This document shows, in pieces, positions 28,381-30,057 of a stretch of DNA of 64,000 nt. A program made the position numbers and the translations under genes. The stretch is from Bernardetiaceae bacterium (lineage in GTDB: Bacteria > Bacteroidota > Bacteroidia > Cytophagales > Thermoflexibacteraceae). The number at the start of each line of letters is the position of its first letter. Within the stretch, counting starts at the first letter, position 1. Location of the stretch: positions 62,001 through 126,000 of the forward strand of contig JANWVT010000002.1 of NCBI GenBank assembly GCA_025056255.1, written 5' to 3'. The notes beneath the pieces are model-generated. The model saw nothing but the letters and a program-made list of their open reading frames with translations, did not search any database and had not been told where the DNA came from.

Positions 28381-30057
28381 ATGATTCATACCCTTCCCGA
28401 GATTGCACAGTACAGCCATTGGCGGCATCCTTATACCCCCGACCCGCAATACAGCAAACGAGTAGCCTACTTTTCCATGGAATTTGCCATAGACCAATGC
28501 CTGAAAACCTATGCGGGCGGCTTGGGCTTTTTGGCAGGTTCACATATGCGCAGTGCCTATGACCTACGGCAAAACATAGTAGGTATCGGTATTCTTTGGA
28601 AACGCGGCTACTACGACCAAACTCGTCAGGAAAATGGGCACATGAACGTCCTTTTTCAAGAAAAACATTACAGTTTTCTGGAAGACACAGGCATTAAGGT
28701 AGGCTTGAAGATTACACATGCGCATGTGTATGTAAAAGCCTACTGCTTGCGCCCCGAAACGTTTGGCACCGTACCGATTTATTTTCTGACAACCGACATT
28801 CCCGAAAATGATTACCTCTCGCGCACTATCACCGAACGACTCTACGACGACAACGAACTGACTCGCGTGGCACAAAGCATGGTGTTGGGCATTGCTGGGG
28901 CAAAGGTGATAGAAGCACTCGGCGGTGCAGATGTGTACCACATGAATGAAGGACACGCTTTACCGCTTGCCTACTACCTATACAAGCAACACCAGCGCAA
29001 TATTGACGAAGTGCGCAAACGCTTGGTTTTCACCACACATACACCCGAAAAAGCGGGCAACGAAACACACGATACCGAGTTGATGCGGGTCATGAATTTC
29101 TTCAGTGGAATAGACCCACACGAGGCTATGCGCATCAGCGGACAGGAGGGAAGCCCTGTGCTGGACTATACGCTGGCAGCCCTACATATGGCGCGCAAAG
29201 CCAATGCTGTTTCCAAATTACACGGTATCGTTAGCAATCAGATGTGGGGACACGATGATGATATTTGCCCAATCATTTCTATTACCAACGCACAAAACAA
29301 ACGCTATTGGGCAGATCCAGAACTGCAAAAAGCATTGCAAAACAATGATGACCGTGCACTTGTTGCCCGCAAAAAGCAAATGAAGGCAGAACTATTCCGC
29401 GTTGTTGCCGACCAAACAGGTAATTTGTTTTCTCCCGATATTCTGACGATTGTTTGGGCACGGCGTTTTGCTGCCTATAAGCGAGCTGATTTAATTATTC
29501 GCGACTTGGGCTACTTTGAGCGCCTGCTCCGCGACAGCAACCGCCCCATTCAGATGATTTGGGCAGGTAAGCCCTATCCGGGCGACCATGCAGCGGTCAA
29601 CTTATTTAATTATTTGGTAGATTTATCGCGCAGCTTACCCAATTGTGCCGTGCTAACTGGCTACGAACTGCAGCTCTCGCGTCTGCTAAAAAATGGTGCA
29701 GATATATGGCTGAACACCCCACGTCGTACGCGCGAAGCCTCTGGCACCAGTGGCATGACTGCTGCTATGAATGGTGCTATCAATTTTTCTATTTCCGATG
29801 GATGGATTCCCGAGTTTGCCGTAGATGGCGTCAACGCATTTGTTATCCCCCCCTCAGATTTGCGCTGTACCATTCCTGAACAAGACATCACCGACCACGA
29901 CAACTTAATGGAAACGCTCACAAAAACCATTATTCCCATGTACTACAATCATCCCGAACGGTGGGTTGGCATGATGAAACAAAGCATGCGCGATGTAGTA
30001 CCGCATTTCGACTCAGACCGCATGGCAGATGAGTATTACAGGCTGATGTACCAGTAG
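28381..30057 (+). CDS. glgP: Alpha-glucan phosphorylase family protein (short form) lacking the PLP lysine
   Basis: 558 aa, GT35 family of the short type that lacks the N-terminal DUF3417 domain. Features that identify it are RVAYFSMEFAID, KTYAGGLGFLAGSH, YHMNEGHALPLAYY, VFTTHTPEKAGNETHD, TIVWARRFAAYKRADLI and IQMIWAGKPYPGDHAA. In active phosphorylases the next segment is EASGTSGMK, where Lys binds pyridoxal phosphate. Here it is REASGTSGMTAAMNGAIN: codon ACT gives Thr. The rest of the phosphate-end pocket looks intact. Either this clade works without PLP, or this copy is not a phosphorylase. The glgP symbol is by family only. It is convergent with the helicase gene, 8 bases apart. Confidence 0.8.
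   Translation: MIHTLPEIAQYSHWRHPYTPDPQYSKRVAYFSMEFAIDQCLKTYAGGLGFLAGSHMRSAYDLRQNIVGIGILWKRGYYDQTRQENGHMNVLFQEKHYSFLEDTGIKVGLKITHAHVYVKAYCLRPETFGTVPIYFLTTDIPENDYLSRTITERLYDDNELTRVAQSMVLGIAGAKVIEALGGADVYHMNEGHALPLAYYLYKQHQRNIDEVRKRLVFTTHTPEKAGNETHDTELMRVMNFFSGIDPHEAMRISGQEGSPVLDYTLAALHMARKANAVSKLHGIVSNQMWGHDDDICPIISITNAQNKRYWADPELQKALQNNDDRALVARKKQMKAELFRVVADQTGNLFSPDILTIVWARRFAAYKRADLIIRDLGYFERLLRDSNRPIQMIWAGKPYPGDHAAVNLFNYLVDLSRSLPNCAVLTGYELQLSRLLKNGADIWLNTPRRTREASGTSGMTAAMNGAINFSISDGWIPEFAVDGVNAFVIPPSDLRCTIPEQDITDHDNLMETLTKTIIPMYYNHPERWVGMMKQSMRDVVPHFDSDRMADEYYRLMYQ

Follow-up and report, generated by a model that had tools for sequence, protein, structure and literature searches.

What does a glucan phosphorylase do once the lysine that holds its cofactor has been replaced? 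GT35 is described as the sole phosphorylase family requiring pyridoxal phosphate (PLP; PMC4336185), and the 5'-phosphate of this cofactor is assigned the part of acid/base partner to the substrate phosphate (PMC11046441, PMC6411801). The gene studied here belongs to this family and encodes threonine at the position of the PLP lysine. A large natural clade lacking this lysine is at odds with the simple view that PLP is indispensable in GT35. It would surprise specialists, and it provides natural material for probing the function of PLP in glycogen phosphorylase, as well as the ways in which the cofactor was acquired or can be lost.

A short GT35 gene and its cofactor position

ORF reading of the window, by which we mean the whole 64-kb stretch of DNA analysed, gave one open frame of 558 codons as its GT35 gene (28381..30057, forward strand, as are all window features below), encoding a 558-aa short-form protein of the TIGR02094 branch. 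The protein scored 442.7 bits against TIGR02094 (alpha-glucan family phosphorylase; cut-off 191.7), which places it in that family, and 53.4 bits against PF00343 (cut-off 27). Its TIGR02093 (canonical phosphorylase) score of 46.8 bits was far below the cut-off of 552.9, and with 42.2 bits against TIGR02095 (GlgA; cut-off 328.45) it fell outside the GT5 glycogen synthases. A weak DUF3417 match, below cut-off, covered the last 28 model positions only. The first-pass annotation had described the gene as full length for the short form, and this was borne out by seven short lysine-bearing relatives of 560–572 aa (one exception, 621 aa); E. coli MalP has 797 aa, making the window protein 239 residues shorter. 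PF00343, TIGR02094 and TIGR02093 all found the window gene alone in its genome, ruling out, as far as these three models reach, another GT35 there that performs the normal role.

The EASGTSGM-T motif (residues 452–460; 29734..29760) reads EASGTSGMTAAMNG in the window protein, with E452, S454, G455 and T456 kept. Codon 460 (29758..29760) is ACT, giving Thr460 where, by alignment, E. coli MalP carries K646, the PLP lysine according to a review (PMC11046441). The flanking lysines are K437, the last upstream, and K515, the next downstream; no lysine nearby in sequence therefore substitutes at 460, and the initial remark that the next dozen residues hold no other lysine was correct.

From public genomes, the best 80 of 244 confirmed relatives were retrieved. 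Motif reading in 81 loci, namely these 80 and the copy of the window's genome, gave T in 78, S in two, A in one and K in none. An alignment of 93 clade rows (the window, 78 of the 80 fetched loci, two plasmid copies and 12 further genome copies) had T in 89, S in three, A in one and K in none at position 460; L042 and L160 probably represent a single gene, which makes it likely that one or more of the 93 rows is a repeat. In contrast, K occupied the equivalent position in all 37 PLP-type rows, comprising 34 of 34 other TIGR02094 rows and three of three canonical phosphorylases. The 34 were hand-picked, 12 from loci of the phylum search, with plasmids and genome stretches supplying the others, and two of them are the same gene. 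The motif likewise carried K in each of the 30 TIGR02094 loci that scored highest in the phylum search; 12 of these are also among the 34 rows. The Schiff-base lysine of a PLP-dependent alpha-glucan phosphorylase (EC 2.4.1.1) is thus absent from the window protein and from the entire aligned clade (T460; K in 0/93), in agreement with the substitution first claimed for this gene and for which a survey of GT35 proteins in Bacteroidota had been proposed.

The two genes nearest to that of the window (90% and 84% identical) come from independent assemblies and likewise lack the lysine. Across the 93 aligned rows the clade spans Bacteroidota, Halopseudomonas/Pseudomonas and Campylobacterota, its carriers including Cytophagales, Chitinophagales, Sphingobacteriales, Halopseudomonas, Pseudomonas and Campylobacterota. 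Because independent assemblies and other phyla carry a residue other than lysine too, a sequencing error, raised at the outset as a possible source of Thr460, was ruled out. All 21 clade genomes of a survey of Bacteroidia, described below, were read at the motif as well (T in 20, S in one, G099). That a whole GT35 branch in several bacterial groups lacks the PLP lysine is, as a sequence finding, solid. Among the titles and abstract openings of the open-licence literature matches listed, there was no report of a GT35 protein without this lysine. Two plasmid copies of the clade are annotated glgP, and genes bearing that name may be misdescribed, since a large clade lacks the PLP lysine. Two clade-like copies per genome were seen in G099 (C44, C63) and G573 (C3), the G099 C44 copy having Ser at the lysine position.

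Residue pattern, predicted fold and phylogeny

The 93 clade rows were compared with the 37 PLP-type rows, a column being considered invariant when at least 36 of the 37 PLP-type rows agreed. Of 45 such columns, 41 were kept in the clade, including H220, N303, R362, K367, Y428, E452, G455 and T456, and four were lost: Q88, which falls in an alignment stretch of lower trust, G304, A433 and K460. The first-pass statement that all other family segments are conserved therefore stood for the 41 columns and failed for Q88, G304 and A433. In N303-A304-Q305 (29287..29295), N is kept, the PLP-type invariant Gly has become A (79 rows) or S (14), and Q305 is found in 93/93; in Y428-E429-L-Q-L-S433 (29662..29679), Y stands in 92/93 rows and the invariant Ala has been replaced by Ser in all 93. 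The A433 and K460 positions, and probably that of G304, are ones we take to sit at the pyridoxal in glycogen-phosphorylase structures.

Residues of the substrate-phosphate and glucose sites were retained without exception (H220, N303, R362, K367, E452, G455 and T456 in 93/93), and the anion-site R361 was present in 91/93. They include the active-site His of H220-T-P-E223 (29038..29049), where E223 is clade-specific (90/93), and the R362...K367 segment (29464..29481; MalP R535 and K540), whose Arg and Lys have phosphate-binding roles in GT35. The glycine loop G46-G47 (28516..28521) was also kept in 93/93. MalP K540 is given as a ligand of the PLP phosphate (PMC11046441), and a review names MalP K554 as a third PLP-phosphate lysine; by alignment, the K554 equivalent is conserved in neither the clade nor the PLP-type group and hence does not discriminate between them.

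New residues have become fixed in the clade, with Q305, V358, P398, E429, S433 and K437 in 93/93 rows, W359 clade-specific in 90/93 and Y399, next to P398, a further clade-specific residue. In a 52-row alignment the invariant lysines, which would be the candidates for a different PLP anchor, were K42, K95, K331, K367, K397 and K437. Compared with lysine-bearing relatives, about 20 residues after W310 are missing; the longer relatives also have an N-terminal DUF3417 region, of which the clade lacks the greater part.

An AlphaFold2 model built with 52 clade sequences (pLDDT 91.1, pTM 0.91) had the GT-B phosphorylase fold, the closest solved structure being the Segatella copri glycogen phosphorylase 9l6i (Z 33.6 over 530 residues, 2.1 Å, 31% identity). 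The next matches were tied: Z was 31.1 for E. coli MalP (8rvk; 527 residues) and 30.9 for the ADP-bound E. coli glycogen synthase (2qzs; 436 residues). Taken alone, the modelled fold is compatible with either a phosphorylase or a synthase. The window protein thus shares with TIGR02094 phosphorylases such as 9l6i an HMM score above cut-off, the fold, and the glucose and phosphate sites, but differs from them in lacking the PLP lysine, G304, A433, Q88, the residues after W310 and most of DUF3417. With canonical PLP-dependent phosphorylases (TIGR02093; E. coli MalP and GlgP) it has fold and catalytic residues in common, unlike the HMM score and the equivalent of Lys646. With GT5 glycogen synthase GlgA it shares the GT-B fold but not the family score. 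By sequence and predicted fold the clade belongs to GT35; by the defining lysine it does not belong to the PLP-dependent phosphorylases.

In a tree of 65 rows (30 of the 93 clade rows, 32 of the 34 other lysine-bearing rows and three canonical phosphorylases; root assumed), a branch with an SH-aLRT support of 100 and a stem of ~ 1.6 changes per column separated the clade from all other rows; on these sequences, the clade is monophyletic. Neither monophyly of the lysine type without the clade (AU p = 0.27) nor union of the clade with the short lysine type (p = 0.14) was rejected. Loss of the lysine within the clade is the simpler reading under the assumed root, because canonical phosphorylases carry it too. 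A stem of this length hints at altered chemistry or specificity.

The same stem, together with the loss of a residue thought essential, would fit a catalytically dead, or purely regulatory or glycogen-binding, homologue. We regard this as highly improbable in view of the invariance of H220, N303, R362, K367, E452 and T456 in 93/93 rows, the equal invariance of the new residues Q305, S433, K437 and P398, and a dN/dS of 0.03–0.06 among the window gene and its two nearest relatives (dS near or at saturation), a ratio by which the clade is under purifying selection.

Candidate chemistries without the Schiff base

Since the substrate-phosphate site is kept and the Schiff base and pocket residues are gone, the clade most likely uses something other than Lys-bound PLP. 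In the reading we prefer, with a probability of roughly 0.5, the clade descends from PLP-dependent alpha-glucan phosphorylases, lost the Schiff-base lysine together with G304, A433 and Q88, and is predicted to cleave glucans phosphorolytically without Lys-bound PLP. An alpha-1,4-glucan would be cut from its non-reducing end, in the catabolic direction, and the residue pattern suggests that cleavage is most likely still phosphorolysis, yielding glucose 1-phosphate without covalent PLP. The substrate phosphate itself could take over the acid/base function of the PLP 5'-phosphate through a front-side mechanism; one such mechanism, in which inorganic phosphate donates the proton, has been proposed for the phosphorylases of GT4 and GT35 (PMC8950772). 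Alternatively, the partner may be a freely exchanging phosphate-bearing ligand in the kept anion site (R361, K367, T456), in a pocket remodelled through S433, T460 and E429. GT4 trehalose phosphorylase, which likewise belongs to a GT family and acts as a retaining phosphorylase (PMC4336185, PMC8950772), is comparable by analogy only; it differs in family and substrate, and no homology is claimed.

PLP might also still be bound non-covalently, held by phosphate and ring contacts in place of the Schiff base. The residues at the phosphate end and at the PLP ring are in place (R361 in 91/93, K367, Y428 in 92/93, T456 and W310). Moreover, it is the 5'-phosphate, and not the aldehyde, that is held to perform glycogen phosphorylase chemistry (PMC6411801, PMC11046441). 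However, G304 and A433 were lost along with the lysine, a pattern more in line with an altered ligand than with a loosened one, and there is no evident reason for 93 of 93 rows to abandon covalent retention; we therefore consider retained, non-covalent PLP unlikely.

A bolder proposal is that the clade dropped PLP entirely and that a nucleotide or a second phosphate fills the vacated site, in which case the enzyme would be either a reversible glucan:NDP glucosyltransferase mobilising glycogen as NDP-glucose or a PLP-free phosphorylase. We hold this tentatively, at somewhat less than even odds. According to one proposal, PLP took the place of a nucleoside monophosphate in a proto-GT35 enzyme (PMC11046441), and a nucleotide in the clade's site would be the reverse of that proposal; if true, a PLP-free clade would have undone the step presumed to have given glycogen phosphorylase its cofactor. 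Of the initial suggestion of a PLP-free, glucan-active GT35 clade with a different donor or acceptor, the existence across phyla of a GT35 clade that is linked to glycogen and lacks the PLP lysine was upheld; this clade may be free of PLP and may use another donor or acceptor.

A related alternative takes the clade to be a reverted nucleotide-sugar (or NDP-accepting) alpha-glucan glucosyltransferase, with the nucleoside in the pyridoxal site and the diphosphate in both anion sites. The kept anion-site residues, the proposed proto-GT35 swap and the ADP-bound 2qzs structure, whose Z to the model differs from that of MalP by no more than the error, are in keeping with it, as are two clade genomes without a recognised synthase. 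It is nevertheless rather unlikely, given a GlgA HMM score far below cut-off, gene neighbourhoods that point to breakdown (pyk-gap-pgi-pfkA or phosphoketolase) and the GT3, GT5 or GlgE already carried by 19 of the 21 clade genomes, as detailed in the next section.

Glycogen genes and the genomic setting of the clade

BLAST with the window protein in 197 Bacteroidia genomes (clade, at least 53% identity; other TIGR02094-like GT35, 31–41%) found the clade in 21, another TIGR02094-like GT35 in 22 and both in none, plus one weak hit. Seven of the 22 non-clade genomes were read at the motif, all with K (G230, G238, G340, G410, G423, G437, G506). A branching-enzyme match, defined as a TIGR01515 score of at least 220 bits (scores drop from 221 to 111 beneath), was present in 21/21 clade genomes vs 25/176 others (Fisher p = 7e-16, kinship ignored). 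Twelve of the 21 matches exceeded the curated cut-off and nine did not, the window's genome being among the nine; its branching-enzyme-like protein (C85:155858-157144) has GlgB as best NCBIfam name, at 284 bits and below curated cut-offs. The mutual avoidance of the clade and other GT35 genes had p = 0.004 among the 46 GlgB genomes and p = 0.07, not significant, among all 197 (kinship ignored in both).

Twenty further clade genomes were reached through the loci, each gene at the TIGR02094 cut-off having the clade-typical two-piece match; the two sets may overlap. A branching-enzyme match at E 1e-40 was found in 19 of these 20 (16 above cut-off), Halopseudomonas and Campylobacterota included, the sole exception being G560, a 1.4 Mb assembly without a match. 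By this co-occurrence, the clade is tied to glycogen metabolism. An additional 821–838-aa frame with a weaker match, resembling a canonical phosphorylase, was found in G563 and G570, which means that the phosphorylase slot is not always empty in clade genomes.

Glycogen synthases of the 21 survey genomes comprised GT3 in ten, GlgA above cut-off in nine and GlgE in four, with at least one of the three in 19. Because these 19 have a synthase or GlgE and none of the 21 has another TIGR02094 GT35, the clade gene apparently stands in for the usual phosphorylase; the presence of GT3, full GlgA or GlgE in 19 of 21 also favours a role in glycogen mobilisation over that of a new synthase. Two genomes, G076 and G111 (L164, L165, L201, L202), had a branching-enzyme match without GT3, GlgA above cut-off or GlgE. 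Either another glycogen synthase or the clade enzyme itself may act there, and these two would suit a synthase role.

As for the window's genome, a GT3 glycogen synthase match is present (PF05693, 692.6 bits; G000:C96:45033-46820, open frame L091 1980-3809), making it unlikely that the clade gene is the sole glycogen synthase there. The same contig carries a 274-aa N-terminal half of GlgA (G000:C96:34318-35007; L090 6193-7017), adjoining a panC-like gene. A GlgA match at E 1e-20 was found in 194/197 Bacteroidia genomes, only 23 of them above cut-off, and the other places among the matches listed span approximately model positions 2–230; a conserved GlgA-GT5 fragment is also reported from Bacteroidetes in a review (PMC11046441). 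With counterparts throughout the class and in that review, the split GlgA is uninformative for the role of the clade and was dismissed as a clue. It is likely that the fragment serves a conserved function in its own right. Three frames of 1341–1430 aa (L169, L170 and L172, in G423, G506 and G410, respectively) combine GT3 with a lysine-bearing GT35 and appear to be glycogen synthase-phosphorylase fusions.

Neighbourhoods could be resolved for 97 of 103 given clade loci, and 21 tagged genes were sought within four ORFs of the clade gene. At least one was found in 13/97, and around the window copy there was none of the 21 within that distance. Two Campylobacterota loci (L043, L081) have the order clade gene-pyk-gap-pgi-pfkA; glgA-glgB-clade gene occurs in L075 and L079, and glgB-clade gene in L034. 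Phosphoketolase lies near the clade gene in L048, L206 and L207, accompanied by acetate kinase or by a universal stress protein; for L206 all three (phosphoketolase, ackA and universal stress protein) were confirmed by NCBIfam or Pfam. Single loci have a type II GAPDH-DUF1622 pair (L135), a TreZ-like gene (L007) and a maltokinase (L054; 338 bits vs a cut-off of 375, with the Pfam maltokinase cap domain present). Pyruvate-kinase matches in L068 and L158 were weak (30–37%). A first NCBIfam check of ten proteins returned the expected name for nine, the GT3 synthase having no match at E 1e-20.

Judged from this minority of loci and from the co-occurrence counts, the clade behaves as a genomic stand-in for a PLP-type phosphorylase feeding glycolysis or the phosphoketolase route. 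A glucan-cleaving, catabolic role is the most likely one; the loci behind it are a minority, and the window copy, G076/G111 and G563/G570 count against it.

The clade member on a Pontibacter plasmid is flanked by genes of the kinds (phosphoketolase, type II GAPDH, DUF1622) that also adjoin lysine-bearing plasmid phosphorylases: type II GAPDH in L129 and L130, DUF1622 in L132 and phosphoketolase in L133. Phosphoglucomutase (L130; L134, a long form) and glgX (L131, L132) also adjoin such lysine-bearing genes. Short lysine-bearing phosphorylases were seen on plasmids of Cyanobacteriota, Chlamydiota and Pseudomonadota (L127–L133, L154), several of them next to metal-resistance, type II GAPDH, DUF1622, CBS-domain or phosphoketolase genes, and their neighbourhoods resemble a mobile energy-stress module.
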